64,000 bases of DNA. It comes from Methanohalophilus mahii DSM 5219 (lineage in GTDB: Archaea; Halobacteriota; Methanosarcinia; Methanosarcinales; Methanosarcinaceae). Both the position numbers and the translations under genes were made by a program. Under the pieces are notes generated by a model that saw only the letters and a program-made list of their open reading frames with translations, did not search any database and was not told the DNA's origin. The DNA lies in contig NC_014002.1 of assembly GCF_000025865.1 (NCBI RefSeq), forward strand, positions 1,178,001 through 1,242,000, read 5' to 3'. Positions 14,001-29,871 of the stretch are shown here, piece by piece. How positions within the stretch are numbered: position 1 is the first letter of the stretch; each line of letters opens with the position of its first letter.

Positions 14001-16290
14001 ATTGTAATTGTTCAAGCAGGACTGAATTATTTTCAGGGATATTAGAAACCGTATAATTATTGGAATCCATTCTTTCAAGCAAAAGTCTCATGCTTGTTAT
14101 GGTATCAAGGTAACTGGCCCCGATATTATCCTTACCTGAAGGATAATTATAGTAAATCACAGCAACTTTCTTGTCCTTATTTTCCTTAAGTTTTAGATTA
14201 GCCCATTTAATGGAACGATTGCTAATCCAGTCAATCTGGGAATCAAGGGGAATATACCGGGTACTCTCACTATCCGGATCATATACAGCATTACCTATCA
14301 ATATGTATTCGAATATCCCATCCACGTTGGGTGCAATGGTCTTATACACCATCTGGGAATTGGGAATACCCCTGTTGGCATCCGCAGGATCAGGATTTGT
14401 GGGAACATCGGCAACTATACCCCGCAGCACTGACACATTAAGGGCTTTAAGTTCCTCAATTCCTTTTTCATTGTCCCAATAATTCAACCTGAAACTTTTT
14501 AGAGATATTACAGATTGAACAAGCGGTGTACCGTTCTCATTACAGTAATATTCGGTAATATTATTGAAGGTATCAAAACCAACCAGCACATTGCAATCCT
14601 TGTTTTCAATATCCTCTATCAGGGCATTTACAACATCCAGTTGTTCCTTTGTGATATCCGATCTATGGAACCACATTCCTATAGTGGGCTTTTCAGGATC
14701 ATAACTATGATTGTCTGCAGAAACATTGGAATACCATTGAATATATTCCTCGGTTGTCTCAAAGAAACGTTTCTCTGAACCAGGATGATAGAGACCTACC
14801 TCAGGGATAATATCACTTTCACCCGAAATTTGCCACCCCTCGGTCAGGAAATTCATTTTTCCATATTCCTTTGAAGAATAGATCAAAAGGTTTTCAGCAT
14901 TAATCCTGCCAGAAGAACTTTCACCCATATTAGCATAATACAGAGCAATCGTATCATTTTCCGACCCATTGGATACATAATCAAAAAAGGCAGGGGCGTT
15001 TCCTGAGTTTATGTCAAGCAGGGAAGAGCCGTTGTCATGTGCCTTAAGGAAAGTGCTGTTAAATTCACTGTCATAACCTATCATGTCACAGAAGATGACA
15101 TCCTGTGTGGAAAGAAAAAAAGAATCAGAAGCATTGTGAAGTTCATCACTCATACCACTCCAGTCAGGTTTATAGGAAGGTATATATGTGAAATTTATGA
15201 ATTCTGCATAGGGATTGGTAAGACTTGCCTGCTCAATGGGTTCATTATGAGTGTAATAGACATAAGTGAAGTTCAGCTGTGGCCACTCATCTGTAATTTC
15301 CGGATGATTACCATAGTTCCTTGAGAGGTGAAGCAAGAAGTTCTCAGCGCTCTTCAATCCGTTTCCTGAAGATTCCATATTGTTATAATAGTTACATATA
15401 GGATCATTGACAGAACCATTTGAGACATAATCAAAATATGCAGGTGTTAAACTAGATTTTACATCAAGCAAAGATGTACCATTTTTATGTGGTCCGTAAA
15501 AAGTATTGTTAAAGTCCTCATCATACATAATCATGTCACAGAATATAACATCCTGAGTAGATAGAAAACCTGAGTCAGAAGCATTGCTAAGTTCATTACT
15601 CATTCCGCTATAATCAGATAGATAAGAGGGAATATAAGTAAAGTTTATAAATTCAGCATAAGAGTTGGTTCTGCTTGCTTTGGAAAGTGGGGTGCTCGAA
15701 GAATCAGCTATATAAGTAATATTGATCATGGGCCAACTGTCAGTGACCTCAGGATGGTTGCCATAATCCCTTGAAAGATGTATCAACAGGTTTTCAGCAC
15801 TTTTCCTTCCTGAATATGAGGAACTATCCATATTATTAAAATATGTGCATATTTTATCTTCTGCCCACATTTCTTCTGTCCCATCAGGTTTGTAATCAAA
15901 GTAAGAAGGAATACTGGATGACCTAATAGCTAGTAAAGAGGTTCCATTCATGTGAGCTGCATATAATGTATCATTTAAAGGTTCCCAGCTAGGTTCCCAC
16001 AACATATCACAGAAAATGACATCCTGAGTCAGCAGAAACTCGTTTAAACCGTTGGTTGAAGCATTTTGAATCTCATCGCTTACCTCCCATTCGTCATATG
16101 CAGGCACGAAAGTATAATTTATCTGGTCAGAATAAGGATTTTCCAAAGAAGCATTTCTCAAAATCGATTTTTGATCTTCAAGACCTATATATGTGATATT
16201 AATCTGTTCATCTGCCGATACCGCCGGCATTGCAACTGCCAGCATAATCAATATGCTTAAAACTAATAGACTCATCTTTGTATGTTGCAT
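11023..16290 (-). CDS. Surface-anchored CobN/BchH-type chelatase-like protein, paralog 1
   Basis: 1755 residues. A Sec signal peptide (MQHTKMSLLVLS... cut after AVSA, about residue 26) is followed by three divergent copies of a module of about 145 residues (roughly 27-460; each reads TYI, then TQDVIFCDM, then FDY, then a Met of NNM, then AENLL). A full CobN/BchH-like region then runs from about 480 to 1650. Visible CobN marks are GKDNIGASYLDT, HFGTHGTHEWLPG at about 897, GEGLTAEYRGNALIIDHLTP and the Cys-rich CCHHTCGNP at about 1603. A Ser/Thr/Gly stalk and a terminal helix ending in RRRQM anchor it. Many N-x-S/T sequons support an extracellular, glycosylated chain. CobN proteins insert cobalt into tetrapyrroles in the cytoplasm with ATP; an exported form must act differently, so substrate and activity are unknown. 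The start at 16290 is set by GAGGCGAT just upstream. Confidence 0.85.
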   Translation of the reverse strand: MQHTKMSLLVLSILIMLAVAMPAVSADEQINITYIGLEDQKSILRNASLENPYSDQINYTFVPAYDEWEVSDEIQNASTNGLNEFLLTQDVIFCDMLWEPSWEPLNDTLYAAHMNGTSLLAIRSSSIPSYFDYKPDGTEEMWAEDKICTYFNNMDSSSYSGRKSAENLLIHLSRDYGNHPEVTDSWPMINITYIADSSSTPLSKASRTNSYAEFINFTYIPSYLSDYSGMSNELSNASDSGFLSTQDVIFCDMIMYDEDFNNTFYGPHKNGTSLLDVKSSLTPAYFDYVSNGSVNDPICNYYNNMESSGNGLKSAENFLLHLSRNYGNHPEITDEWPQLNFTYVYYTHNEPIEQASLTNPYAEFINFTYIPSYKPDWSGMSDELHNASDSFFLSTQDVIFCDMIGYDSEFNSTFLKAHDNGSSLLDINSGNAPAFFDYVSNGSENDTIALYYANMGESSSGRINAENLLIYSSKEYGKMNFLTEGWQISGESDIIPEVGLYHPGSEKRFFETTEEYIQWYSNVSADNHSYDPEKPTIGMWFHRSDITKEQLDVVNALIEDIENKDCNVLVGFDTFNNITEYYCNENGTPLVQSVISLKSFRLNYWDNEKGIEELKALNVSVLRGIVADVPTNPDPADANRGIPNSQMVYKTIAPNVDGIFEYILIGNAVYDPDSESTRYIPLDSQIDWISNRSIKWANLKLKENKDKKVAVIYYNYPSGKDNIGASYLDTITSMRLLLERMDSNNYTVSNIPENNSVLLEQLQSQGINAGSWAPGVMNEMVENRTEWGLQLIPMETYHEWFEQEVPENLQNQVIEEWGAPWEEDLPQNKSLMIWENETGKYLVIPAVQYDNVWLMPQPARGMMQNDDTLYHSALVPPPHQYIGFYFWLNKEWNPDAIIHFGTHGTHEWLPGQTYGLNRTEEWAPILLQDLPNIYPYIVANVGEGLTAEYRGNALIIDHLTPTLVRSGSYGEIANLSQLMQAYYGPEMSEQTKQAYQVDIIDEIVDLNLSVDLGLNVTELYNYNTTEFGDFIKNVLHEYVEEVEGENIPYGMHVLGEVPSTNMTDPEKDELSCMVRAMMGNKFEENVSAAFYPESEYPLGIPSNDTKVNQLVWEVVTNGTSVNDSQMRVYNAINASVSSDLERGIVYRDRLIGSAAEMDRVMSALSAGYVEPGPGTDPVMNPSAVPTGRNFYGVDPQLYPSEATWRLGKYLAEQMLTDYHDKHGEYPRKVSFSRFGVEFIRDHGTLEAEALYLLGIKPGWDANGRIDLSKFEVIPEEELQPSYGDYPGRPRIDIVYATAGMRDAFPGKIKMLDHAVAMANEAPAGNYSNYVNESTSAIYDELYAQFSKEMTEEEADELARQLANMRCFAVMDGTYEIGTGNAIGASGSWNDEGEIAEIYLEKMGYVYGNDLWGFKSSELLTSNLRNVDASIHSDSSNLYDTLDNDDFFQYFGALNLATRYVSGTTPEMYVSDTRDPDAATMAGMQEYLMKNLRSRYWNPKWMDGMQESGYSGGRMMAEFVDNLWGWEVSNPELVDDSVWQETYELYVNEDMNEWFDANNAEAYQSISGRMIEAIRKGYWEPSDEVKETLVSEYVESVAENGAACCHHTCGNPLLDDYVDGIMSVPGADVVDQETMDKYKEQLEAAIGSSEKSSTSSTSFSSGGVGSAQIVNTSTTGSASNQTTSTSDGGYGESTQQPTSESAESSSDYVEGYEMTKENPRNDNSGGSSFSGADIVGTVLVLAAVGAMYIGFRRRQM

Positions 16291-16311
16291 ATTATCGCCT
16301 CGATAGTATGC

Positions 16312-16351
16312 CACATCCCGGGTCCCTGTTTGGTAGCAGAACCGGGATGTG
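16312..16351 (-). promoter_or_regulatory. 10-bp inverted repeat in front of CobN-like paralog 1
   Basis: CACATCCCGG (16312-16321) and CCGGGATGTG (16342-16351) are perfect complements with 20 bases between. The element lies 21 bases upstream of the start codon. The same arms stand in front of the other two paralogs. It could be a leader RNA hairpin or a DNA operator near the transcription start. Confidence 0.6.
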
Positions 16352-16423
16352 TACATTTACTTTATTATAATAAATTTAATTTGTTCTTCGATTCATAGCA
16401 TATTCCATATTTATGAAATAAAG

Positions 16424-16452: not shown

Positions 16453-19400
16453 TTACATCTGTCTCCTTCTGAAACCAATATACATGGCACCTACTGCTGC
16501 AAGTACCAGCACGGTTCCCACAATATCAGCACCTGAGAAGGATGAACCACCGGAGTTATCGTTCCTTGGGTTTTCCTTTGTCATTTCATAACCTTCCACG
16601 TAATCACTGCTGGATTCTGTGGAATCGGGTGTTGGATCTTGTGCGGATTCACTATACCCACCATCAGAACTGGAAGTTGTCTGATTAGAAGCAGTGCCTG
16701 TACTTGAAGTGTTCACTATCTGTGCACTGCCCACACCACCACTGCTGAAGGAGGTTGAAGAAGTAGACGATGATTCAGAAGATGTGGTAGCCTCATCCAT
16801 TATCTCTCTGTATTTTTGAGCTGTTTCCTCATCAACGACCCCGGGCATTGAGAGATAACCATCAACATAATCCTGCAGAGCCGGATTTCCACAGGTATGA
16901 TGACAGCAAGTAACATCTCCTGTTTCGGCGATTGATTCCACAAATTCACTAACAAGGGATTTTAATTGTTCATCAGATGCATCCCATCCATTTTTACGGG
17001 CTGTTTCCAGCATCCTGGCATTCATAGACTGGTATTCATATGGATTTGTCTCTTTTATCCATTCACGGTTTTCACCTGTGAAATATGCGTCATACACATC
17101 ATTCCAGACATGATCCGCAATAAGATCGGGATGCAGAGCCTCCCATCCCCAGAGATTCTCAATAAAATTACCCATTTTACCTGCACCCTCAAAGCCATGC
17201 TGTTGCATACCTTCAAACCAGGTTGGGTTCAAATATCTTGTTACTATCTCCCTGGAAAGATAGGTGCTTAGAGTCTCTATCTTTTCAGCATCTGGGTTTT
17301 GCAGATTCATTACGTATGTTTCCGGTGCCATGCCGGAAGCTTCACTGACCACCAGATTCAAACCGCCGAAATACTGGAAGAAATCGTCCGTGTCCATTGC
17401 ACCATAGGTGTTAGAACTACGGCTGTGGACAATCGCCCCGACATCTTCCAGATTGTCATTAAATACATCTTTATTGTCGATTGAATCATCCGCTACATCC
17501 CACTGGCTGGCAATTTCCTCCATACTTTCTCCCCAGACATACTCACCATAAGCATTGCTCATCCTGTCCATGTAGAGGTCAGCAAGTTCTGTGTTGTTTT
17601 CCCAGGTATCACTGGCCGAAACAGCATTGGACATACCCGTTCCGTAAGAACCATCTGCAGGGCCAAATATCCTGAGCAAAGCAATGTTCATTGAGGCAGT
17701 TTCGTTCTGCAATGTAGCATTTAAACCATCATAGATATTGTTGGTGTTCTCTCTCACGTAGTTAGTGTTGTCCGCCGAATCATAGGAAATGTATTCAGCT
17801 GCAGGTCGCTCTTCATCCTTAGTACCATCATAGCCGTTATCCGGTGCGTTGTAGGCGAGATATACCGCCTTGTCTATCAGTTCCACCTTGTGAGGGAAAC
17901 TGTCTCTGTAAAGCCCTGATATCTGGACAAGCACATCTATACGTGGACGATCCAATTCAGAAGATGGAATGAGTTCTACATCCTCCACCTTATCACCACT
18001 GCCCCATACAGGCCTGACACCCAGAAGATAAAGAATTTCTGCTTCCATCACACCCTCATGACGAGTAGATTCTCCGGCCCATAGAATGAATGCTGCTTTA
18101 CTGGGATAAGCATCATCTCCGTGTTTTTCTTGATAAGCATCCATCGTTTCATTGGCCATCTTCTTTCCGAGCTCCCAAGACTGTTTTGTCGGAATTAGCT
18201 GTTCATCAAAAGCATAGAAATTCCGACCGGAAGGTAAAGCATCAGAACGTTGTATTGGGTCTCCACCCAAATTGGGTTCAACATACTTGCCATCCATAGC
18301 CTTGAGTAACTGTTGAAGCTCGTCTTCAGTTAAAGATAATTTATCAGAATATTCGGTTGCTTTGGACAGGTAATTGTCCATTGTATCAGAGTTATTGCCT
18401 TCTCCCAAAATCTGCAATTGGGCGTCAGTTGAAGATGTATTCTGATTCAGAACAAGATCCAGAAGTAAAACCGGAGCTTTTTCTGAAGTATTGTATTGTG
18501 CAACTTCATCTTTGAAATCCTTACCTAACATGGAACAAACCATTTCACTTAGTTGTTCTCCTTTTGGAGCCTTGCCTAATATATGCAAACCATAAGGCAT
18601 TGAAGTTGTTCTCAATTCTCTGAGCACATCATCAAGTTCATCCAGAAAATGATCTCGTAAATCTTCATCTTCTGCCTCTGCATATGTCATGTTTATTCGT
18701 TCATCAAGATGTAACTCATAAGTCAGATTCACGATTTCTTCAAAACGTGTTTCCTGTGTATCTGGATCCGAGTCAAGTGCATGGTATTGTGAGATTTTTT
18801 CATTCAAATCTGTATAGTTACCATAACTCCCAGACATTACAACAGGCGGTATCAGATGGTCTATTACAACTGCACTACCCCTGCGTTTGGCTTGCATACC
18901 TTCTCCCATTCCATCCATTACATAAGGATAGACAACCGGGATATCACCGACCATAAGAGCCGGCCATTCTTCGCTGAAAAGACCGAACTCCTTACCCGGC
19001 AACCATTCAACCGTGCCATGTCTGCCCATATTAACCATTACATCGGCATCAAAATCATTCTGCAACCAAAGGTAGAAAGCAATGTACTGATGATGGGGCG
19101 GAAGATCAGCATCATGATAAAGGGCATCAAGATCATCAAACCATCCACGTGTGGGTTGTGGGGCAAGAATTACATTGTCACTTATCTCTATTTTGGGAAT
19201 TACCACGAATCGGTCACCTGAATCATCTTCATAGACCATTATTTCACCGGGAGCTTCACCCCATCTATCCGTTACTTCCTTTCTTCGTTCTTCAGGAAGA
19301 GTGTCAAACCATTTTCTGTAGGTATGCTCGGGAATTAGTTCCACCTTGTTAGTTTCCACAAGATCTTCCAGTTCGCCGGGTGCCCATGTACCTATATTCG

Positions 19401-21696
19401 TACCCTGTTTCACGAAAAGGTCTACAAGTTCGGTTTTGTTGGGAATGCTCGAACTTTGTACATCGTAACTTTCGTTTGCCATTGCCCCAAGTAGATTGCC
19501 GATACTTGGTACAACTTCCAGATACGAGGCACCAATGTTATTCTTCCCAGCACCATGGTTATAGTAGAGGACTACGACTTTTTTATCAGAATGGTCTTTT
19601 GCAGAGAGATTTGTCTGAGCTTCTGCCCGATCAACAAGCCACTCAACCTGAGTATCAACAGGTTCATATATTTTATTACCCTGTGAATCGAATTCTGTTG
19701 AGGCAATCATTATCGGATCTATCCAGCCCCAGGTTTCAGGCCTGTATAATCTTATCATATAAGTATTTGGCAATGGTGAGCTTGTCTCTTTCCATTCGGT
19801 CAGATTCATGTAACCATTGGTAACCGTATTCATCACCGGTACACCCAGATTTTCTATATCGAAATACTGACTGCGGTAGGTGGACGATAGAATAAGGTCC
19901 ACTTTGGTTTCAGGAGTATGATTGAAGAAAGGATCCACATAATCACTGCTGGAACCATAACATGCAATGACATTCATATTTCTTGATTCAAGTTCAGCTA
20001 TGAGAGAATCAAATGGGCCCATACGTTCCGGATAATAGGAGCTGTAAAACGTGAGACCAACGGTTGGTGAATTTTCATCAAAGGCATGCCCATCTTCCCT
20101 GTTTCTATACCAGTCAAAATACTCTGTTGAATTTGATGTGAAATTGGATTTCTCCGTCATATTGGGATGATAGATAGCTTTTGGAGAGCCATCCGGCGCT
20201 TTTACGTCAAGATCATTCCTATCCACAAATGTTTTGGCAAGATAATAGATCATATTATCAAAATTGGATTCCTCGGTAGCTCCGTATTTCCAATAAGCTT
20301 CAAGTATTTCTATAATTTCGTCCCTATCATCCAAGAACTCAGCAGGAATGTTTTCCGTCAGAGCAGCATTATCTGTAATAACAATTGTTCCATTGGATAT
20401 TGCCGAATCTACCTCATTTTCAATTTTACTGGCACTATCTGTAAACATTTTTGCATAAATTACATCAACATTACTCAAATCGGTTTCATCATCAATTGTA
20501 GATGGCAAATGGTATGAAACACTTAAATTAAGAGTTGAATCATTGTTGATCCTGCCTACCAAACTTTCTAACTGAGGTTCGTAACTTGAATAACCCGTTA
20601 TTATGGAAACATTGACCAGAGGATATGATGAAGATGTAGCGAGACTTTTTAACAAGACTACATTACTGGATTTATTGTATTCATTCCCCATACCAGTACT
20701 GTAAGTACGACCTGATATGTTATAACCATCAATATAAGAATTGATCCAATTTTCATCAATCATGGAAGATGATGAAATTTCTAGGGATTGATTGGTAAGG
20801 TCGGAACCGTTTACCTCAACATCAATCTTTCCTTTGTACCACTTCCATTCACCCCTGCTTTCAGAATAATTGGCGGCATATAGTTCATATTCACCAAAAG
20901 GAATGTCATCAAGGACAAAATTACCATTCTCATCACTGGTAGTGCTTAAAACAAAATTGGATGATTCACGAGTTAGAAGAACTACATTACTGGATTTATT
21001 GTATTCATTCCCCATACCAGTACTGTAAGTACGACCTGATATGTTATAACCATCAATATAAGAATTGATCCAATTTTCATCAATCATGGAAGATGATGAA
21101 ATTTCTAGGGATTGATTGGTAAGGTCGGAACCGTTTACCTCAACATCAATCTTTCCTTTGTACCACTTCCATTCACCCCTGCTTTCAGAATAATTGGCGG
21201 CATATAGTTCATATTCACCAAAGGGAATGTCATCAAGGACAAAATTACCATTCTCATCACTGGTAGTGCTTAAAACAAAATTGGATGATTCACGAGTTAG
21301 AAGAACTACATTACTGGATTTATTGTATTCATTCCCCATACCAGTACTGTAAGTACGACCTGATATGTTATAACCATCAATATAAGAATTGATCCAATTT
21401 TCATCAATCATGGAAGATGATGAAATTTCTAGGGATTGATTGGTAAGGTCGGAACCGTTTACCTCAACATCAATCTTTCCTTTGTACCACTTCCATTCAC
21501 CCCTGCTTTCAGAATAATTGGCGGCATATAGTTCATATTCACCAAAGGGAATGTCATCAAGGACAAAATTACCATTCTCATCACTGGTAACATTGTTAAT
21601 TTTCATCATATTTTCAGAAGCCGATACCGCCGGCACTGCCACTGCCAGCATAATCAATACACTTAAAACTAATAAACACACTTTTCCATATCGCAT
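16453..21696 (-). CDS. Surface-anchored CobN/BchH-type chelatase-like protein, paralog 2 (altered His motif)
   Basis: 1747 residues with a signal peptide (cut after AVSA), then three nearly identical 108-residue repeats (about 37-355). The repeats look like carboxypeptidase-regulatory/Cna-B-like beta-sandwich modules (DENGNFVLDDIPFGEYELYA). A CobN/BchH-like body follows at about 400-1640, with GAGKNNIGASYLE, GEGMQAKRRGSAVVIDHLIPP, CCHHTCGNP at about 1599, a Ser/Thr stalk and an RRRQM-terminated helix. The segment matching HFGTHGT of its sisters reads NMGRHGT at about residue 892, so the first His is Asn and the first Thr is Arg; metal handling may differ or be lost. The N-terminal module type differs from paralogs 1 and 3 while the last 100 residues are nearly the same. 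The start at 21696 follows GAGGCGAT. Substrate unknown. Confidence 0.85.
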   Translation of the reverse strand: MRYGKVCLLVLSVLIMLAVAVPAVSASENMMKINNVTSDENGNFVLDDIPFGEYELYAANYSESRGEWKWYKGKIDVEVNGSDLTNQSLEISSSSMIDENWINSYIDGYNISGRTYSTGMGNEYNKSSNVVLLTRESSNFVLSTTSDENGNFVLDDIPFGEYELYAANYSESRGEWKWYKGKIDVEVNGSDLTNQSLEISSSSMIDENWINSYIDGYNISGRTYSTGMGNEYNKSSNVVLLTRESSNFVLSTTSDENGNFVLDDIPFGEYELYAANYSESRGEWKWYKGKIDVEVNGSDLTNQSLEISSSSMIDENWINSYIDGYNISGRTYSTGMGNEYNKSSNVVLLKSLATSSSYPLVNVSIITGYSSYEPQLESLVGRINNDSTLNLSVSYHLPSTIDDETDLSNVDVIYAKMFTDSASKIENEVDSAISNGTIVITDNAALTENIPAEFLDDRDEIIEILEAYWKYGATEESNFDNMIYYLAKTFVDRNDLDVKAPDGSPKAIYHPNMTEKSNFTSNSTEYFDWYRNREDGHAFDENSPTVGLTFYSSYYPERMGPFDSLIAELESRNMNVIACYGSSSDYVDPFFNHTPETKVDLILSSTYRSQYFDIENLGVPVMNTVTNGYMNLTEWKETSSPLPNTYMIRLYRPETWGWIDPIMIASTEFDSQGNKIYEPVDTQVEWLVDRAEAQTNLSAKDHSDKKVVVLYYNHGAGKNNIGASYLEVVPSIGNLLGAMANESYDVQSSSIPNKTELVDLFVKQGTNIGTWAPGELEDLVETNKVELIPEHTYRKWFDTLPEERRKEVTDRWGEAPGEIMVYEDDSGDRFVVIPKIEISDNVILAPQPTRGWFDDLDALYHDADLPPHHQYIAFYLWLQNDFDADVMVNMGRHGTVEWLPGKEFGLFSEEWPALMVGDIPVVYPYVMDGMGEGMQAKRRGSAVVIDHLIPPVVMSGSYGNYTDLNEKISQYHALDSDPDTQETRFEEIVNLTYELHLDERINMTYAEAEDEDLRDHFLDELDDVLRELRTTSMPYGLHILGKAPKGEQLSEMVCSMLGKDFKDEVAQYNTSEKAPVLLLDLVLNQNTSSTDAQLQILGEGNNSDTMDNYLSKATEYSDKLSLTEDELQQLLKAMDGKYVEPNLGGDPIQRSDALPSGRNFYAFDEQLIPTKQSWELGKKMANETMDAYQEKHGDDAYPSKAAFILWAGESTRHEGVMEAEILYLLGVRPVWGSGDKVEDVELIPSSELDRPRIDVLVQISGLYRDSFPHKVELIDKAVYLAYNAPDNGYDGTKDEERPAAEYISYDSADNTNYVRENTNNIYDGLNATLQNETASMNIALLRIFGPADGSYGTGMSNAVSASDTWENNTELADLYMDRMSNAYGEYVWGESMEEIASQWDVADDSIDNKDVFNDNLEDVGAIVHSRSSNTYGAMDTDDFFQYFGGLNLVVSEASGMAPETYVMNLQNPDAEKIETLSTYLSREIVTRYLNPTWFEGMQQHGFEGAGKMGNFIENLWGWEALHPDLIADHVWNDVYDAYFTGENREWIKETNPYEYQSMNARMLETARKNGWDASDEQLKSLVSEFVESIAETGDVTCCHHTCGNPALQDYVDGYLSMPGVVDEETAQKYREIMDEATTSSESSSTSSTSFSSGGVGSAQIVNTSSTGTASNQTTSSSDGGYSESAQDPTPDSTESSSDYVEGYEMTKENPRNDNSGGSSFSGADIVGTVLVLAAVGAMYIGFRRRQM
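20657..21588 (-). repeat. In-gene tandem repeat, 324-bp unit, about 2.9 copies
   Basis: Copies end at 20940, 21264 and 21588, exactly 324 bases apart, and differ by only scattered single bases (for example AAAAGG versus AAAGGG near 20897). Each codes 108 residues of the N-terminal module of paralog 2. The repeat keeps the frame. Confidence 0.95.
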
Positions 21697-21717
21697 ATTA
21701 TCGCCTCGATAGTATGC

Positions 21718-21757
21718 CACATCCCGGGTCCCTGTTTGGTAGCAGAACCGGGATGTG
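21718..21757 (-). promoter_or_regulatory. 10-bp inverted repeat in front of CobN-like paralog 2
   Basis: CACATCCCGG (21718-21727) and CCGGGATGTG (21748-21757) with the same 20-base middle as in front of paralog 1. The whole stretch from the start codon through the repeat is identical in the two genes. Confidence 0.6.
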
Positions 21758-21831
21758 TACATTTACTTTATTATTGTCAATTTTACTTGTTTATTTTCAT
21801 ACATTTCTTCTTCTTTGAGTAGAAAATAAAG

Positions 21832-21862: not shown

Positions 21863-24800
21863 TTATATCTGTCTTCTTCTGAAACCAACATACATGGCAC
21901 CTACTGCTGCAAGTACCAGTACGGTTCCAACAATGTCAGCACCCGAGAAGGATGAACCACCGGATTCCTCATTTCTGGGGTTTTCCTTGGTCATCTCATA
22001 ACCCTCCACGTAATCGCTGCTGGATTCTGCTGACTCAGATGTTGGTTCCTGCGTAGATTCACCATAGCCCCCATCCGAAGTGGTGGTGGTCTGGTTAGAG
22101 GCTGTACCCGTGGTTGAAGCATTCACGATTTGTGCACTGCCGACACCACCGCTGGTGGAGGAAGAAGACTTGGAAGTCTGTGAATTTGCAGGTTGTGTGG
22201 CCCCATCCATCAACTTCTTATAAGATTCCTGGTCTTCAGCACTAACACCCGCAACAGACATCATACCTTCAACATATCCATCCAGTGTGGGGTTACCACA
22301 TGTGTGGTGGCAACAGGTCACACCATTCTCAACAACTGATTCAGTATATTCCTTTACTAAATTGTTGAGAACCTCATCGGATGCTTCCCAGTAACCTTTC
22401 CTCTCGGCTTCAATCATCCTTTTAATAGTTGACTGATAGGCATAAGCATTATCACCGGATTTCATAAACTCGTCAACACCAAGATCATATTTGTCTTCCA
22501 CATAGACATCATAGACCTCATCCCAGTCGGAATTCTTGACCATATCAGGTGTTGTTACATCCAGTCCCCAGATATGCTCAACGGTCTTCATGAATTCCCT
22601 GGCGCCTGCATAATCGTACTCCATCATACCGGAGATGAATTTGGGATTGAAAAGCGTTGAACGGATATCCTTCCTGTAGGCCTCTTCATATGTGATTACC
22701 TGCGGGTTATCCACATTTTTGAAATCGGCAACATACATCTCGGGAGTATCGCCAGAAAGGGATCTCACAGCAAGCCCGAGTCCTCCAAGATACTGATAGA
22801 AATCGTCGTTATCAATGATTCCGTAGAGGTTGGAAGAATCACTGTGCATCGCAACCTTCACATCCTGGAGATTCATCCTGAAGACATCTTCGTAGCTGTC
22901 TCCCCATACATCCTGTCCGTAGATATTGGACATACGGGAAATATAGAGATCCGCCAGTTCGTCCTCACTGTCCCAGGTGTCACTTGCGGTCACTGCTCCA
23001 GGCAGACCGGTTCCATAGGCTCCAGGTGACTCACTGAAAATTCTGGAGCGGGACAATGCGAGGGCAGTACTTTCATTGTATCCTGCTTCAAGCAATGCCT
23101 CTTCCATTTCCAGGGAATTCGCCCTCACATAATTGGTTTCATTGCTTTCATTAAGAGCTGCAACGGTACGCACCGCCTCATCTATCAACTGAAGATGATT
23201 CGGGAAAGTATCCCTGTAAAGCCCGGAAGGAGTTACAACTACATCAATTCTTGGATGGTCCATCTCATCCTGTGGAATTACCTCGAACCCAGAAATATGG
23301 CCATAGGTTCTGGTCGGTTCAACACCCAGGAGGGAATAGATCTGCGCCTCCATCAAACCCTGATGACGCATTGTCTCAACTGCCCACAGGACGTAGGTTA
23401 CTTTTTTTGGATATGTATCGTTGTGAGTGGATCTATACTGTTCAAGCATTTGGTTGGCAAGAATGCCACCCAACTCTACAGTTTCTTCATCCGGAACGTC
23501 GCGCGGATCAAAACTATAGAAGTTCCTTCCTGTGGGAACTGCATCCGGATTTCTGATAGGATCGTTACCTGGTCCTGCTTCAATGTAGCCTCCATTCAGA
23601 GCACGGAGTGTCTGATCAATTTCACGGGTGGTATTCTGTAGAGCCGCGGAATAATTGAGTGCCGTATTCAGGTCTGCAGTGACGTTGGAATCAGTCTTTC
23701 CCAAAACATCCTCCTGAGCCTGTGATACATTTGTACCGTTGAGCAAGGTGGCATTCAACAGATCAGTAGCGTGGTAATTGGATGCGTTCTCCCAATCCTC
23801 TTCATGCCATTCATCATTAGGATTAGTTTCTTTGATGACATTCACTATGTGGTCGATGAAAGCACTACGTAGCATGGATTTGACCATGAACACAAGTTTG
23901 TCATCCTCAGGTGCAACACCGAAAACATGGAGCCCAAGAGGCATAAGGGTCCCCTGCAGTTCATGAAGGTAGTTATGCACGTCATTTGTGACAAAGTTCT
24001 CAAATTCCGTGTCATTCATGGAACGCATTTCTTCAGGAGTAACACCAAGGTCGTACTCCATTGAAAGGTTTTCATATTTTTCAATTGTACTGTTGCGATA
24101 AAGAGCCATATTCACAGTATCATTAGCAGTTGCTGCCTCTTCATATTCATGTATTTTGTCATGAATCTCGGCAAGTTCCCCATACAGACCTGAATCTGTT
24201 ATCGGAGGGGTCAGATGGTCTATAATTACCGCATTACCCCGGCGTTTGGCCTGAGTACCCTCTCCAACATTGTCCATAATATAGGGGTATACTACAGGTG
24301 TATCAGCTACCATTATGGACGGATAATCATAGCGCCATAACCCCACTTCCTTACCCGGCAACCATTCTTGTGTGCCATGGGTTCCGAAATGGATCATTGC
24401 ATCTGCATCATAGTCCTGATTGATCCAGAAGTATGTGGCCAGATACTGGTGAGTAGGTGGAAGGTCCTTGTCATGATAGGTCACCGATTCATCCGAGAGG
24501 TCTCCTCTGGTGGGCTGGGGTATGAAATTGATATTACCCATCTGGACTGTAGGTATGACAAATTTATTATTATACACCATTATGTCACCCGGAGCTTCAC
24601 CCCATCTGTCTTCAACGTCATCCCTTACGGATTGTGGAAGGGTGTTGTACCATTCCATATACTCGTCGACAGGCACAAGCGTGACATTACCTGATTCAAC
24701 GACCTTTTCAAGCTCACCGGGGGCCCAGGAACCTACATTTCTGCTCTCGATGAACAGATCGATGAACTCACTGCCGTTTGGAATACTGCCATTGCCTGTA

Positions 24801-27800
24801 TCATAACCACTGCTATTCATTTCATCAAGCAACACCTCGAAACTGGAAGCTATATCCAGATAACTGGCACCAATGTTGTTCTTACCACCTTCATGATTGT
24901 AGTAGATGATGCTGATCTTCTTATCCGAATTATCTTCATTGCCAAGTTCTGCCCAGGAGATGGCACGGTCACTAATCCAATCAACCTGCGAATCCAGAGG
25001 TTTGTAGTAATATTGTCCGGTTTCTGAATCCTGTACTCTGCCTGCTACCCATATGTAATCAATCAAACCCTCAAGTTCCGGCATCGTAACCTGGTATGAT
25101 AGGGATGAAGTGCTCAATCCATGCACACTTGCATTGTATTCATCCGGTGTATGGTAACGGTCGAGTAATCCCTTTATTACAGGAACATTATATTCATTCA
25201 TGGACTCAATTCCCAGAGCAGGGTCGTTGTATTGGAAATTGAATCCTTTCAGCGATATCATGGAATCCACAAGAACCGTGCCATTATTGACAAAGTATTC
25301 AGATGTGTCGTCTGTAATTACCTTATAAGTTGAAAAAATTACATTACAACCCTTGGATTCCAGATTCCTGATTAGCTGGTCTTCCGTATTGAAAGCAAGA
25401 GAATTCTTTTCAATATTATAACTGGCTATTATACCAACGGTTGGTGCGGATTCATTGTATCCATGGTATTCATACCATTTAAGATATTCACTACTATTTT
25501 CGAACACCTGCGGGAATGCATCTGGATGATAGATACCATGGTCAGGTATAGATGGCTGGAAGGCTTCAGAATATTCAATATAGGCACCTTCAAGAGTGGA
25601 ACCTACAGAACGTATCCAGTGTTCCATGTTGGAGTAACCATTGTTGTACAAATACTCCTTCATAAAGCTGTAAGGTGGATTTGCCATATCAAAGGTGGCA
25701 ATGCCATAACCATCATCCATACCAAACATTCCTATCTGGGCACCATTGTCCTTGGCATCCAGCAGCACATCTTTGAATTCCGTAATCTGTGTGCCACCTA
25801 TCATGTAAAGGATAATGACATCCTGATCGGAAACATCGGTCAGATTTGCAACCGCTTCCGTTCCGTCCATAACCGTGACATTGAAACGATCGTTTATTAC
25901 AGCCCTCTCCGAAAGGACATTGTTGAGATGGGAGATACTGTTATCGGAGTTAACTATATAAGTCACATTAATTACTGTATGTACTATTTCAGGATCAGAG
26001 ATGGTCTCACCAGCCCATAGCTCACTGAATTCTTGCCCCATGAGCCTGAGCATGGATTCCATATTGGCATCCCCGCCCTGTATCCAGTACCTTTCGATGT
26101 CAGTATATTCATCCGAATACAAGTCGACATTGGGTACGGTTATATTGGATGAAAGGTTGTAACCCATAACCATTGCACCGCCTGCTTTGGCAGATTTTAT
26201 ACTGGAAGTCCATCCGTCTACCACGGATTCATTCTGTGACTCGATGAAAATTACTCCATAGTCGGAGAAATCGAAGTCTGCTGGTGCAGGATTGTCCTTG
26301 GTGAAAATGGTTATGTCCAATTCAGAGGAGATGCTGGCATCCAATGTAGCATTGTTCAGGGCAGCCTCATTAAAGTCGGTACCCAGAACAAACAGGTATT
26401 TACTGCTGTCTACTTTTGCATTATTAAGAATATTTTCCACCAGTTTGGGAGATTCGGTTGCAAGATAAGTCAGCAGGTTTTCCGCATTCTCAAGACCTTC
26501 ACCTTCAGTTCCCATATTGCTGTAATAGGTGGCAACAGGGTCACTGGTAGTACCATCGGAATGATAATCGAAGTAGGAGGGGGGAGTATAAGCTCCCATC
26601 GGGTCTATACTGTAGATGACAGTACCCTTATCATGCGCTGATTTGAGAGTGGTATTTACTGTGGTGTTATCAGTAAATGCATCATATATGCCCTGACAAA
26701 CAATAACATCTTGGGTTTCAAGGAAACCACTCTCTGAGGCATTTATCATTTCCTGGCTTATACCTGAATCTGAATAATCGATGAAGGTATACTCAATCAG
26801 ATCACTGTGATCATTACTCTCACTGGCTGTCTGAAGGGCATCATTTGCACTGTAGGAAATGTAGGTGACCTTTGACTTCATTGTGAGATAGGTCAGCAGG
26901 TTTTCCGCATTCTCAAGACCTTCACCTTCAGTTCCCATATTGCTGTAATAGGTGGCAACAGGGTCACTGGTAGTACCATCGGAATGATAATCGAAGTAGG
27001 AGGGGGGAGTATAAGCTCCCATCGGGTCTATACTGTAGATGACAGTACCCTTATCATGCGCTGATTTGAGAGTGGTATTTACTGTAGTATTATCAGTAAA
27101 TGCATCATATATGCCCTGACAAACAATAACATCTTGGGTTTCAAGGAAACCACTCTCTGAGGCATTTATCATTTCCTGGCTTATACCTGAATCTGAATAA
27201 TCGATGAAGGTATACTCAATCAGATCACTGTGATCATTACTCTCACTGGCTGTCTGAAGGGCATCATTTGCACTGTAGGAAATGTAGGTGACCTTTGACT
27301 TCATTGTGAGATAGGTCAGCAGGTTTTCCGCATTCTCAAGACCTTCACCTTCAGTTCCCATATTGCTGTAATAGGTGGCAACAGGGTCACTGGTAGTACC
27401 ATCGGAATGATAATCGAAGTAGGAGGGGGGAGTATAAGCTCCCATCGGGTCTATACTGTAGATGACAGTACCCTTATCATGCGCTGATTTGAGAGTGGTA
27501 TTTACTGTAGTATTATCAGTAAATGCATCATATATGCCCTGACAAACAATAACATCCTGAGTTTCAAGGAAACCACTCTCTGAGGCATTTATCATTTCCT
27601 GGCTTATACCTGAATCAGAATAATCGATGAAGGTATACTCAATCAGATCACTGTGATCATTGGTCTCACTGGCTGTCTGAAGGGCATCGTTGGGAGTGTA
27701 AGAGATATAAGTTACTTTTGTTACTTGTTCTTCTGCCGATACCGCCGGCACTGCCACTGCCAGCATAATCAATACACTTAAAACTAATAAACACACTTTT

Positions 27801-27811
27801 CCATATCGCAT
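21863..27811 (-). CDS. Surface-anchored CobN/BchH-type chelatase-like protein, paralog 3
   Basis: 1982 residues, the largest of the three and the nearest to the ExbB gene group. A signal peptide (cut after AVSA) is followed by three almost identical 141-residue modules (about 27-450) related to the divergent ones of paralog 1. An extra alpha/beta region follows (about 450-750), then the CobN/BchH-like body with GGKNNIGASYLD, HFGTHGTQEWLPGK at about 1144, GEGTQAKRRGNAVIIDHLTPP, PTGRNFYSFD and CCHHTCGNP at about 1834. The Ser/Thr-rich stalk and RRRQI-ending helix anchor it in the membrane with the body outside. It keeps all conserved His seen in paralog 1. The start at 27811 is chosen from GAGGCGAT and the signal peptide; a longer reading adds only the leader hairpin. 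A role in cobalt, nickel or corrinoid handling is inference. Confidence 0.85.
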   Translation of the reverse strand: MRYGKVCLLVLSVLIMLAVAVPAVSAEEQVTKVTYISYTPNDALQTASETNDHSDLIEYTFIDYSDSGISQEMINASESGFLETQDVIVCQGIYDAFTDNTTVNTTLKSAHDKGTVIYSIDPMGAYTPPSYFDYHSDGTTSDPVATYYSNMGTEGEGLENAENLLTYLTMKSKVTYISYSANDALQTASESNDHSDLIEYTFIDYSDSGISQEMINASESGFLETQDVIVCQGIYDAFTDNTTVNTTLKSAHDKGTVIYSIDPMGAYTPPSYFDYHSDGTTSDPVATYYSNMGTEGEGLENAENLLTYLTMKSKVTYISYSANDALQTASESNDHSDLIEYTFIDYSDSGISQEMINASESGFLETQDVIVCQGIYDAFTDNTTVNTTLKSAHDKGTVIYSIDPMGAYTPPSYFDYHSDGTTSDPVATYYSNMGTEGEGLENAENLLTYLATESPKLVENILNNAKVDSSKYLFVLGTDFNEAALNNATLDASISSELDITIFTKDNPAPADFDFSDYGVIFIESQNESVVDGWTSSIKSAKAGGAMVMGYNLSSNITVPNVDLYSDEYTDIERYWIQGGDANMESMLRLMGQEFSELWAGETISDPEIVHTVINVTYIVNSDNSISHLNNVLSERAVINDRFNVTVMDGTEAVANLTDVSDQDVIILYMIGGTQITEFKDVLLDAKDNGAQIGMFGMDDGYGIATFDMANPPYSFMKEYLYNNGYSNMEHWIRSVGSTLEGAYIEYSEAFQPSIPDHGIYHPDAFPQVFENSSEYLKWYEYHGYNESAPTVGIIASYNIEKNSLAFNTEDQLIRNLESKGCNVIFSTYKVITDDTSEYFVNNGTVLVDSMISLKGFNFQYNDPALGIESMNEYNVPVIKGLLDRYHTPDEYNASVHGLSTSSLSYQVTMPELEGLIDYIWVAGRVQDSETGQYYYKPLDSQVDWISDRAISWAELGNEDNSDKKISIIYYNHEGGKNNIGASYLDIASSFEVLLDEMNSSGYDTGNGSIPNGSEFIDLFIESRNVGSWAPGELEKVVESGNVTLVPVDEYMEWYNTLPQSVRDDVEDRWGEAPGDIMVYNNKFVIPTVQMGNINFIPQPTRGDLSDESVTYHDKDLPPTHQYLATYFWINQDYDADAMIHFGTHGTQEWLPGKEVGLWRYDYPSIMVADTPVVYPYIMDNVGEGTQAKRRGNAVIIDHLTPPITDSGLYGELAEIHDKIHEYEEAATANDTVNMALYRNSTIEKYENLSMEYDLGVTPEEMRSMNDTEFENFVTNDVHNYLHELQGTLMPLGLHVFGVAPEDDKLVFMVKSMLRSAFIDHIVNVIKETNPNDEWHEEDWENASNYHATDLLNATLLNGTNVSQAQEDVLGKTDSNVTADLNTALNYSAALQNTTREIDQTLRALNGGYIEAGPGNDPIRNPDAVPTGRNFYSFDPRDVPDEETVELGGILANQMLEQYRSTHNDTYPKKVTYVLWAVETMRHQGLMEAQIYSLLGVEPTRTYGHISGFEVIPQDEMDHPRIDVVVTPSGLYRDTFPNHLQLIDEAVRTVAALNESNETNYVRANSLEMEEALLEAGYNESTALALSRSRIFSESPGAYGTGLPGAVTASDTWDSEDELADLYISRMSNIYGQDVWGDSYEDVFRMNLQDVKVAMHSDSSNLYGIIDNDDFYQYLGGLGLAVRSLSGDTPEMYVADFKNVDNPQVITYEEAYRKDIRSTLFNPKFISGMMEYDYAGAREFMKTVEHIWGLDVTTPDMVKNSDWDEVYDVYVEDKYDLGVDEFMKSGDNAYAYQSTIKRMIEAERKGYWEASDEVLNNLVKEYTESVVENGVTCCHHTCGNPTLDGYVEGMMSVAGVSAEDQESYKKLMDGATQPANSQTSKSSSSTSGGVGSAQIVNASTTGTASNQTTTTSDGGYGESTQEPTSESAESSSDYVEGYEMTKENPRNEESGGSSFSGADIVGTVLVLAAVGAMYVGFRRRQI
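26458..27726 (-). repeat. In-gene tandem repeat, 423-bp unit, three copies
   Basis: Units 26458-26880, 26881-27303 and 27304-27726 are exactly 423 bases each and nearly identical (a few substitutions, for example GTGGTGTTA versus GTAGTATTA). Each codes a 141-residue N-terminal module of paralog 3, in frame. Confidence 0.95.
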
Positions 27812-27834
27812 ATTATCGCCTCGATAGTATGCAG

Positions 27835-27877
27835 CACATCCCGGTCCAAAAGCCCGCCAGCCGACGGGTCGGGATGT
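27835..27877 (-). promoter_or_regulatory. Inverted repeat in front of CobN-like paralog 3
   Basis: ACATCCCG (27836-27843) pairs with CGGGATGT (27870-27877). The middle differs from the other two genes and holds its own small stem, CCCG/CGGG (27853-27856 and 27865-27868). The outer arms are kept while the inside changes, as expected if the arms matter. A TATA-like CATATAAAAG at 27941-27950 on the minus strand may be the promoter. Confidence 0.55.
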
Positions 27878-27968
27878 CACCACAATATTTTCAACTGAAA
27901 TTTATCCACAATTTCTCCTTACATATAATCAATAAACTTGCTTTTATATGACAAAAAAATAAAACGGG

Positions 27969-28331
27969 TTATCCTCCCGATTCATTTTTCCCTTCAGGTA
28001 CATACACAACACGCCCGTCTGCCAGCTGATAGGCCGTACCCAGCGCCTCACCGGAACCCCCGCCGATCTGTTCGGTCATATTGAGCACTTTGATTTCCTG
28101 CCCCTCTTTGGTAATGATCTGCATGTCTTCTTGCCCGGGGTTTTTCACAATGGTCACATCATCCGTAGGAGACAGCAGTTCCGGCAACTGGAATGACATC
28201 ACCAGAGCCACCAGCAGAGCCACGGAGAAGACCATGGCTATGTCGAAAAGGTTGGCCACGCCTGTTAAGGGGTTCTGTTCATCTCCTTCATAAAGCAAAC
28301 CGCTTCGCCTGTATTTCTTTTGCTTCCTCAT
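27969..28331 (-). CDS. DUF2149 membrane protein, ExbD-like in topology
   Basis: 120 residues: a basic N-terminus (about 1-13), one membrane helix at about 28-48, and a soluble outer part with a KEGQEIKVLNM strand and a Gly-rich turn. The helix starts NLFDIAMVFSVALLVALVM; an Asp sits at its beginning just as in ExbD/TolR, where that Asp carries protons. Its ATG overlaps the stop of the ExbB-like gene (ATGA), so the two are translated together. DUF2149 has no proven function; an ExbD-like role is my inference from topology, the Asp and the gene pair. A T-rich stretch after the stop (27953-27960) may end transcription. Confidence 0.85.
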   Translation of the reverse strand: MRKQKKYRRSGLLYEGDEQNPLTGVANLFDIAMVFSVALLVALVMSFQLPELLSPTDDVTIVKNPGQEDMQIITKEGQEIKVLNMTEQIGGGSGEALGTAYQLADGRVVYVPEGKNESGG

Positions 28332-28951
28332 TCCTCACCCTCCATACACTCAAGCAGATAATTGATATCAGCCATATCCTGCCAGTACCATCTTTTACGT
28401 ACCACGGTCAGGACATATCCTACGATACCGGCAAACAGACCGAGTACCGTTGTCGCAAAAGCCACCATAAGATTATGAGCCAGCTGGAGGATGTTGCCTT
28501 CTGCAAGTCCTATAAGAGCCGGACCGAGAGGAATAAGGGTACCCATAAGACCAATCATAGGGGCAACCGTGGAAAGGATCTTGGTATACTCGAGGTTCTT
28601 GGTCATTCGCACTTCATACTCCTCGGAAAGCCAATCGATAGATGTGGCAGCACTGCTGCCAAGATGGGCAGCAGCATCCCGGGCAAATGACATTACAAGG
28701 GAATTTTGCTTCAGTTCACCCAGGTGTGTAGCGGCAAAATCAAAATCCGAGGATTTCACGGAATCCTGCACCCTTTTCCCCACATCCTCAAGCTGGGTGA
28801 CATTGCGATGCCTCTTGGAATATTCGGAAATGAACTCACCAATCAGAGCCAGAGATGATACAACTGCTAACAAAAGCAGTATAATAACAGGATACAATAG
28901 TGACGAAGAAACGGTATACATTATCTGGAATAACGAAGAATCTATTGCCAT
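28328..28951 (-). CDS. MotA/TolQ/ExbB-family proton channel protein
   Basis: 207 residues with three membrane helices: one near 15-38, and a pair at about 125-148 (APMIGLMGTLIPLGPAL) and 165-188 (AFATTVLGLFAGIVGYVL). The paired helices carry the family signature with Gly, Pro and Thr lining the ion path. A cytoplasmic loop of about 80 residues lies between helix 1 and helix 2. ExbB-type proteins form a pentamer around an ExbD dimer and turn proton flow into motion. Archaea have no outer membrane, so the TonB-type role is excluded; the likely clients are the neighbouring surface CobN-like proteins. It overlaps the DUF2149 gene and follows DUF2162 by 21 bases. Confidence 0.9.
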   Translation of the reverse strand: MAIDSSLFQIMYTVSSSLLYPVIILLLLAVVSSLALIGEFISEYSKRHRNVTQLEDVGKRVQDSVKSSDFDFAATHLGELKQNSLVMSFARDAAAHLGSSAATSIDWLSEEYEVRMTKNLEYTKILSTVAPMIGLMGTLIPLGPALIGLAEGNILQLAHNLMVAFATTVLGLFAGIVGYVLTVVRKRWYWQDMADINYLLECMEGEE

Positions 28952-28972: not shown

Positions 28973-29650
28973 TTAATACTGGGTTTTGATACGATTAAGT
29001 GCAAAGCCGGCCGTTATGAGGATTGCAAAGCCGATGAAGGGTATGATGTCAAATTCCGGGCCGCTGAAAGTCGGCAGACCCAGCTGTTTTGCCTGCATGT
29101 AGGCAGGGGCAATTACTGCACCCATCAGGTAGAACAGACCCAGAAACGTCATGGCATTTCCAAGGGTTGTAGGGTCTTTTTTGAATCGCCTGAAAACCAG
29201 GGAAGAGGAAATGATGGACACGAAAAAGATGACACCTACCCCAAGTCCCAGAAGTGCACTGCTGATCTCAACAGTATTGGAAAGCAGCATGATTGACATG
29301 AAAAGGGCAGCAAGGCATACCGGACAGGGAAGGGAGATCACAAGGAAGGTCTTATGGGATACATCCACCCCGCAAGTCCATTTTTTGGATGTGTATATAC
29401 CCACACCGAGAAGTAAAAGGGCCATCACAACGTGCAGCCCCATTCCAAGCTGGGAAGCAGTCAGCAGGTAGGATATATCGACATAATTAAGAATAACACC
29501 TATTATTACTGATAATACAAAATACATCCCTGCAATGCCAAACAACTGCCTGCGATTGATAGTCGAACATCCACATCCCACTCCGGCCTTAACTGCAAAT
29601 ACAGCTATTGCCAGAAGGATCCCTACAACCGTTAAATATACTGCACTCAT
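28973..29650 (-). CDS. DUF2162 multi-helix membrane protein, putative transporter
   Basis: 225 residues with about six or seven hydrophobic helices. Cysteines cluster at helix ends: GVGCGCS near residue 26, WTCGVD near 92 and SLPCPVC near 106-112. Such Cys pairs suggest metal or thiol handling. The family is known as a putative transporter found with CobN- and ExbB-like genes in methanogens, without a proven substrate. It is the first gene of a three-gene operon with the proton channel and DUF2149 proteins. A TATA-like sequence lies at 29691-29700 on the minus strand. Confidence 0.8.
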   Translation of the reverse strand: MSAVYLTVVGILLAIAVFAVKAGVGCGCSTINRRQLFGIAGMYFVLSVIIGVILNYVDISYLLTASQLGMGLHVVMALLLLGVGIYTSKKWTCGVDVSHKTFLVISLPCPVCLAALFMSIMLLSNTVEISSALLGLGVGVIFFVSIISSSLVFRRFKKDPTTLGNAMTFLGLFYLMGAVIAPAYMQAKQLGLPTFSGPEFDIIPFIGFAILITAGFALNRIKTQY

Positions 29651-29796: not shown

Positions 29797-29871
29797 TTTT
29801 AGGATAACATGTGTAACCCATTTGGGTAACATAGATTGATCATTTATGAGAAAAAAGAGACTATCCTGAAA
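29797..29871. promoter_or_regulatory. Nested inverted repeats between DUF2162 and the NMD3-like gene
   Basis: An 18-base near-palindrome GTAACCCATTTGGGTAAC (29813-29830) is enclosed by arms TTTTAGGATA (29797-29806) and TATCCTGAAA (29862-29871) that pair over 10 positions with one G-T. A plus-strand TATA-like ATATAAAAG (29784-29792) predicts a transcription start inside the palindrome. It is a candidate operator in a 311-base divergent intergenic space; no other gene is seen there. Confidence 0.45.

Follow-up and report, generated by a model that had tools for sequence, protein, structure and literature searches.

DUF2149 as a candidate partner subunit of a distinct ExbB-type membrane motor in archaea

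A small gene of Methanohalophilus mahii DSM 5219 encodes a DUF2149 protein that is probably the B subunit (the role of ExbD, TolR and MotB) of a distinct, ion-driven membrane motor of the ExbB type. The gene lies at positions 27969-28331 on the minus strand of the 64,000-nucleotide stretch of DNA analyzed here (hereafter, the window). The cargo of this motor may be a set of three exported CobN/HmuS-like chelatases with C-terminal anchors, which are encoded just downstream; we make this assignment more tentatively. The proposal gives a DUF one specific function that can be probed by mutation, since it concerns one residue and one partner. In addition, the ExbB-DUF2149 pair would be the only ExbB-type motor in archaea that have neither TonB nor ExbD, and its job there should therefore be something other than outer-membrane transport.

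The gene is an open reading frame of 120 aa with an ATG start, and its assignment is supported by a profile match, by conservation and by a predicted fold of low confidence. The match to PF09919 (E = 3.9e-36, 123.7 bits against a curated cut-off of 27.1) places the protein in the DUF2149 family. The protein consists of a basic N-terminal head (MRKQKKYRR), a single hydrophobic stretch with LFDIAMVFS, and an outer part of about 70 residues that carries KNPG and GTAY..DGR..YVP motifs. Thus, the basic head and the single membrane helix described in the initial annotation are both present, and the ATGA overlap that it noted between the DUF2149 and ExbB-like reading frames was confirmed as a 4-base overlap at 28328-28331. 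The same annotation had the helix begin with the Asp. This detail needs correction, because AlphaFold predicted a helix at residues 21-46 (with a pLDDT of up to 91 in the helix block of an otherwise low-confidence fold), which would put Asp30 about nine residues inside it. The outer domain was predicted in two AlphaFold runs as five short strands without a helix, with pLDDT mostly under 70, and only the helix was confident in both models. A Foldseek search with the first model gave 188 matches at E<=10, none of them at E<=0.001, and a structure search for a solved DUF2149 protein gave 0 matches. The M. mahii genome (2.01 Mb, one contig), whose gene content and relatives point to a methanogen, contains one DUF2149, and among 14 named control genomes the family was found only in Methanosarcina acetivorans.

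We counted the residues in the Asp30 column by source in an alignment of 190 DUF2149 members. Among the 105 members from sets that had not been chosen by motif (those found by HMM or tblastn, plus the window itself, which has Asp), 103 carry Asp, one carries Glu and one, a truncated sequence, lacks the position. Asp occurs in 53 of 53 archaeal profile-search loci, in 40 of 41 bacterial profile-search loci (it is missing from the truncated frame of L215) and in nine of 10 plasmid records, the Glu being that of Runella. All 85 genes of the motif-found set (the best 80 of 547 confirmed loci) also have Asp, but they were left out of the count because the search motif contains this residue. The Asp had been expected to be invariant; the acid is indeed conserved, with a single Glu among the 105 members. 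One subfamily (L046-L049) has kept the helix motif intact, and its outer domain is rebuilt without the KNPG and YVP motifs. The conserved helix acid, together with the recurring pairing with ExbB in archaea and several bacterial phyla, is more than chance.

DUF2149 might instead have no motor function and serve the ExbB-like channel passively, as an assembly or plug subunit. This reading is compatible with the literature surveyed, part of it seen in extracts, in which biochemical data on any DUF2149 were not found. However, the membrane acid persists in the members with the most divergent outer domain (L046-L049 versus the rest), as expected for an ion-binding site, and we consider a purely passive role highly improbable.

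The ExbB-like channel subunit (207 aa; 28328-28951, minus strand) matches PF01618 with an E-value of 5e-12, contains GLMGTLIP and ATTVLGL motifs and has ExbB (5sv0, E = 0.0012) as its best PDB match. ExbB and DUF2149 are near-obligate partners. Profile searches of 294 genomes from the phylum identified DUF2149 in 92 and an ExbB/MotA/TolQ-type protein likewise in 92, in 90 of them over the cut-off; 89 of these 90 also have DUF2149. The genomes with DUF2149 and no ExbB-like match (G165, G204 and G268) are all incomplete assemblies (82-85% complete), and two genomes (G005 and G178) have ExbB matches below the cut-off only. An over-cut-off ExbB without DUF2149 was found only in G203, where a true ExbD directly follows the ExbB gene. 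This is also the one genome of the 294 with an over-cut-off ExbD; the same search gave no ExbD match in any DUF2149-bearing genome, and TonB (TonB_C) was found in 0 of 294. The sole true ExbB-ExbD among these genomes lies on contig C139 of G203 (L174, L177), and may represent contamination or transfer because the assembly is fragmented.

The ExbB proteins of the two kinds of pairs also form separate groups. From 227 ExbB-like ORFs, 19 without a partner in reach were dropped, and the 208 remaining ones, labeled by their neighbor gene, were reduced to 182 distinct sequences of sufficient length and then to 111 at 75% identity. In the resulting tree, made by a quick method and with its root unknown, the 88 DUF2149-partnered and 23 ExbD-partnered rows were split by one change on a branch with an SH-aLRT of 100, whereas shuffled partner labels required 21 changes on average and none of 500 shuffles was as low as one. 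Both groups have kept GLxGT in TM2 and TTxxGL in TM3, the motifs in which the pore threonines of ExbB/TolQ lie. DUF2149-partnered ExbBs carry the signature GLmGTLIPmgpaL, where ExbD-partnered ones have GllGTVxGM...F. In-frame ExbB-DUF2149 fusions were not found among the collected ORFs. Mutual information across 145 pairs placed 12 of the top 25 couplings between the DUF2149 helix and TM2/TM3 of ExbB, against a background of 7.5%. However, an 85-row subset gave only two of 25, and an ExbB-DUF2162 control met the same ExbB helices; therefore, we did not use coevolution as evidence.

The initial annotation had regarded DUF2149 as a replacement of ExbD/TolR and had suggested a profile comparison of the two. 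The window protein gave no ExbD (PF02472) match at E<=1, and it lies below the curated cut-off of that family. The suggested comparison was not significant: hhalign of DUF2149 against ExbD profiles gave a probability of 1%, and scores as good were reached by 15 of 150 ExbD profiles with all columns permuted and by 57 of 150 in which the membrane columns alone had been permuted. Other searches point the opposite way. A Pfam search with the ExbD of L218 returned DUF2149 as the second-best family (E = 4e-5, 24.3 bits, below the cut-off of 27.1). We also ran the DUF2149 model against six-frame translations of 23 bacterial genomes without an over-cut-off DUF2149, taken from a phylum sample around a Desulfospira, and assigned ExbD identity to the matches by an ExbD profile. 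ExbDs made up 16 of the 24 matches at E<=10, including the top 13, in a set that includes three genomes (G754, G792 and G834) picked for earlier matches that proved to be ExbD; without these three, ExbDs made up 12 of 19 matches and all of the top 10. In 16 of 16 alignments, inspected by eye, the Asp of ExbD is aligned under that of DUF2149.

These results bear on the possibility that DUF2149 and ExbD share no ancestor and that the helix motif of DUF2149 arrived by convergence at the same solution, an acid at the pore. The non-significant profile comparison is consistent with convergence, as is the predicted outer domain, which differs, at low confidence, from that of ExbD. On the other hand, ExbDs head the list of sub-cut-off matches from whole six-frame genomes, all in one register, and with an ExbD as query DUF2149 ranks second among the Pfam families; both results count against convergence. 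We therefore think convergence rather unlikely; from the sequences compared, common descent of DUF2149 and ExbD is plausible as far as the helix goes, and is not proven for the entire protein. As a statement about role, 'ExbD replacement' is well supported, and it stands for archaea, where ExbD is absent from the genomes with the pair. It does not hold for bacteria. True ExbD coexists with DUF2149 in nine of the nine bacterial genomes examined, so that DUF2149 is there an addition and not a replacement.

ExbD and TolR are present in two copies, with their helices inside the pentameric ExbB pore. In the motor that we propose, the DUF2149 helix would sit in the pore of the ExbB-like protein in a 5:2 assembly of ExbB and DUF2149, with Asp30 as the proton- or ion-binding acid through which the ions would pass. 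The outer domain of DUF2149 would then transmit motion to a cargo at the outside of the membrane, moving or pulling an exported partner, and DUF2162 may form a third membrane part of the motor.

The DUF2162 gene (28973-29650, minus strand) heads the operon and encodes a multi-span membrane protein of 225 aa (PF09930, E = 3.1e-69). It is followed on the minus strand by the genes for the ExbB-like protein, for DUF2149 and for the three CobN-like giants downstream. Cysteines in GCG and PCPVC motifs of DUF2162 are kept across the members compared and could be redox or metal-binding residues. An inverted repeat, TGTAACCCATTTGGGTAACA, lies upstream of DUF2162 at 29812-29831, and 162 bp separate its near end from the start of that gene. 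The repeat also occurs in three genus mates, perfectly in L251 and L252 and with one arm changed in L250, and GTTACCC- or GTTATCC-type repeats are found upstream of DUF2162 in L260, L261 and L263 as well. By its sequence the repeat appears operator-like, and it may act in this way. A riboswitch or other RNA was not found at positions 10500-31500 at Rfam gathering scores.

To describe gene neighborhoods, we used the set from the motif search, that is, the 85 DUF2149 genes in the best 80 of 547 confirmed loci, and counted neighbors for the 37 genes that had 7 kb or more of flanking sequence on each side (20 bacterial and 17 archaeal). Within these long-flanked loci of the best 80, ExbB adjoins DUF2149 in 36 of 37, CobN is present in 33 of 37 (20 of 20 bacterial and 13 of 17 archaeal), and DUF2162 lies close to the pair in 17 of 17 archaeal and five of 20 bacterial loci. 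Such a distribution raises the possibility that the motor drives DUF2162, or HmuT in its place, so that freed metal, tetrapyrrole or electrons would be moved through the membrane, the chelatase being merely an upstream enzyme. The archaeal loci counted under DUF2162 include those without CobN, its GCG and PCPVC cysteines are kept, and the Runella protein at the place of DUF2162 has weak DsbD_2 and NicO matches, all of which favor this idea. However, a DUF2162 recognizable by sequence is lacking in most of the bacterial loci counted, and none is annotated in the loci of Azospirillum and Comamonadaceae. HmuT of Bacteroidota lacks these cysteines and is at best a distant relative of DUF2162 (hhalign probability 33%, P = 4.6e-4). 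We consider it unlikely, on balance, that DUF2162 is the driven part. In one locus (L101), DUF2162 lies behind a SNAP-like (TPR-type) stretch within a single ORF.

The chelatases that we prefer as cargo belong to the CobN family (NF004645, PF02514), and the genome has exactly three such proteins, all in this cluster. Chelatase 1, which is CobN/HmuS-like (21863-27883, minus strand), has a listed GTG start, yet its signal-peptide-like segment, MRYGKVCLLVLSVLIMLAVA, begins at an inner ATG. It has a C-terminal membrane anchor and DD in place of the DH of HmuS, and its best PDB match is the HmuS heme dechelatase (9d26, E = 1.2e-144). The CobN-like chelatases 2 (16453-21762) and 3 (11023-16356), both exported and on the minus strand, have the same layout. 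In chelatases 1 and 2, near-identical N-terminal tandem repeats of roughly 100-150 residues occur in three copies each. When the three window proteins were taken together with seven from plasmids, 10 of 10 CobN proteins started with a signal- or anchor-like sequence and had a hydrophobic segment in the C-terminal part, as judged by eye and without a predictor. DD replaces DH in six of these 10 (the three window proteins and those of T. lovleyi, Runella and Comamonadaceae). The DH of HmuS contains His-1209, according to the accessible text of PMC12583661; given the DD in its place, the substrate here may not be heme.

There is no ATP outside the membrane, where these chelatases would work. A PF01078 search of the genome found no ChlI/ChlD; its matches were of only two kinds, which we take from their sequences to be a protease of the LonB-like kind and a helicase resembling MCM. 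Trichlorobacter lovleyi has likewise been reported to lack CobS/CobT (PMC3403914, consulted in part). In the available portions of PMC12583661, de-chelation by HmuS requires NADH and not ATP, the recombinant protein performs 1-2 turnovers, and HmuS removes the metal from heme both in lysates and in membranes, no proton-motive force (PMF) being stated there. HmuS of P. gingivalis was stimulated more by its own inner membranes than by those of E. coli, and the authors write, in the part accessible, that a part for HmuTUV cannot be excluded (PMC13227078). In Methanosarcina barkeri, two CobN-like proteins respond to the iron and sulfur source, as stated in the sections available of PMC10846266.

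We speculate, with low confidence, that the ExbB-DUF2149 pair is a PMF-driven motor that replaces, outside the membrane, the ATP-driven AAA+ motor (ChlID/CobST) of class I chelatases. Exported CobN/HmuS proteins would draw on it for turnover, product release or substrate gating, and in ANME-1-type archaea the same motor would have been put to use for other surface proteins. Against this speculation, the conversion of heme by HmuS proceeds in lysates and membranes for which no PMF is described; the motor, if it acts on the chelatase, may therefore drive release, gating or repeated turnover and not the chemistry. The proposal would offer an answer for exported CobN/HmuS chelatases, which have no ATP motor and which, purified alone, achieve only those 1-2 turnovers (PMC12583661, as far as its text is accessible).

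Against CobN as the cargo, four of the 17 archaeal long-flanked loci of the best 80 have no CobN, and ANME-1-type loci carry surface proteins. Loci with the pair and without CobN are L067, L069, L089 and L094, together with the shorter-flanked L088, L101 and L104, and around several of these lie genes for exported-looking proteins in which cohesin, dockerin, beta-helix/NosD or propeller domains occur. Such proteins may be either other cargo or, as adjacency alone would allow, merely other genes. The ANME-1-type loci (L088, L101, L104 and L089) have one or more ExbB-DUF2149 pairs with no CobN in reach. They also encode exported-looking proteins of large size that have beta-helix/NosD, cohesin or DUF11 domains.

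The pair (HmuU-HmuV in Bacteroides) could also energize a TonB-dependent outer-membrane receptor, with DUF2149 as the ExbD of a TonB system. This role has been proposed for Bacteroides HmuU/HmuV (PMC10100974, in the text available), and at least 15 of the 20 bacterial long-flanked loci of the best 80 have a TonB-dependent receptor, a lower bound because the receptor search used five seeds. However, the same five-seed search found a receptor in 0 of the 17 archaeal ones, and the phylum search found no TonB. In addition, on a plasmid of T. lovleyi, a complete exbB-exbD-tonB set stands right beside DUF2162-ExbB-DUF2149-CobN, so that the DUF2149 pair is not the TonB energizer there, and the coexistence of true ExbD with DUF2149 in all bacterial genomes examined argues in the same direction. 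Therefore, we dropped this role for the archaeon and regard it as improbable in general. The T. lovleyi module lies in a B12 cluster, and nine other plasmid relatives were examined out of 11 plasmid matches in total. The module is in heme operons in Bacteroides, Prevotella and Aureibacter, inside a hyp nickel-hydrogenase cluster in Runella and near nikR in Azospirillum. A Comamonadaceae plasmid has the bare ExbB-DUF2149-CobN set, and a Diaphorobacter plasmid has CobN and a receptor nearby. The Pseudoalteromonas record is without annotation, and the annotation table of the Paracoccus plasmid has no related gene.

The idea of ExbD-likeness is not new, because HmuV, the DUF2149 protein of Bacteroidota, was likened to ExbD in 2023: in the accessible text of PMC10100974, HmuU is described as similar to ExbB and HmuV as similar to ExbD. 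A report of 2026, in the part available, describes HmuV as without homology to any known family (PMC13227078). The partnership with a separate ExbB clade, the archaeal distribution and a PMF motor for exported chelatases were not found in the literature surveyed, which was partly accessible and had most subscription papers outside its range.

Finally, we compared the proposed motor with three known systems. Like ExbD/TolR, DUF2149 is small, with a basic head and one N-terminal helix that carries an acid (NLFDvAM in DUF2149 and TPLvDVML in ExbD/TolR), and its gene directly follows an exbB-type gene, as exbD does. The outer domain of ExbD has a mixed alpha/beta fold. Unlike it, the outer part of DUF2149 is shorter and, in a low-confidence model, apparently all-beta; DUF2149 is also paired with a separate ExbB clade and occurs without TonB. 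The second system is the hmuYRSTUV heme operon of Bacteroidota, in which HmuV belongs to the same family, directly follows an ExbB-like gene and shares its operon with a CobN-type protein, HmuS. Proteins like S, U and V are encoded in the window, and only the distant hhalign likeness noted above links DUF2162 to HmuT. Bacteroidota possess an outer membrane, and their system includes HmuY and a TonB receptor, all of which the archaeal loci lack; these loci have DUF2162 by sequence, and the window CobN proteins have DD against the DH of HmuS. Third, the window proteins are of the same family (CobN) as the class I chelatases CobN/ChlH, which work with the ATP motor CobST/ChlID, but differ from them in being exported and anchored, in a genome where ChlI/ChlD were not among the PF01078 matches.
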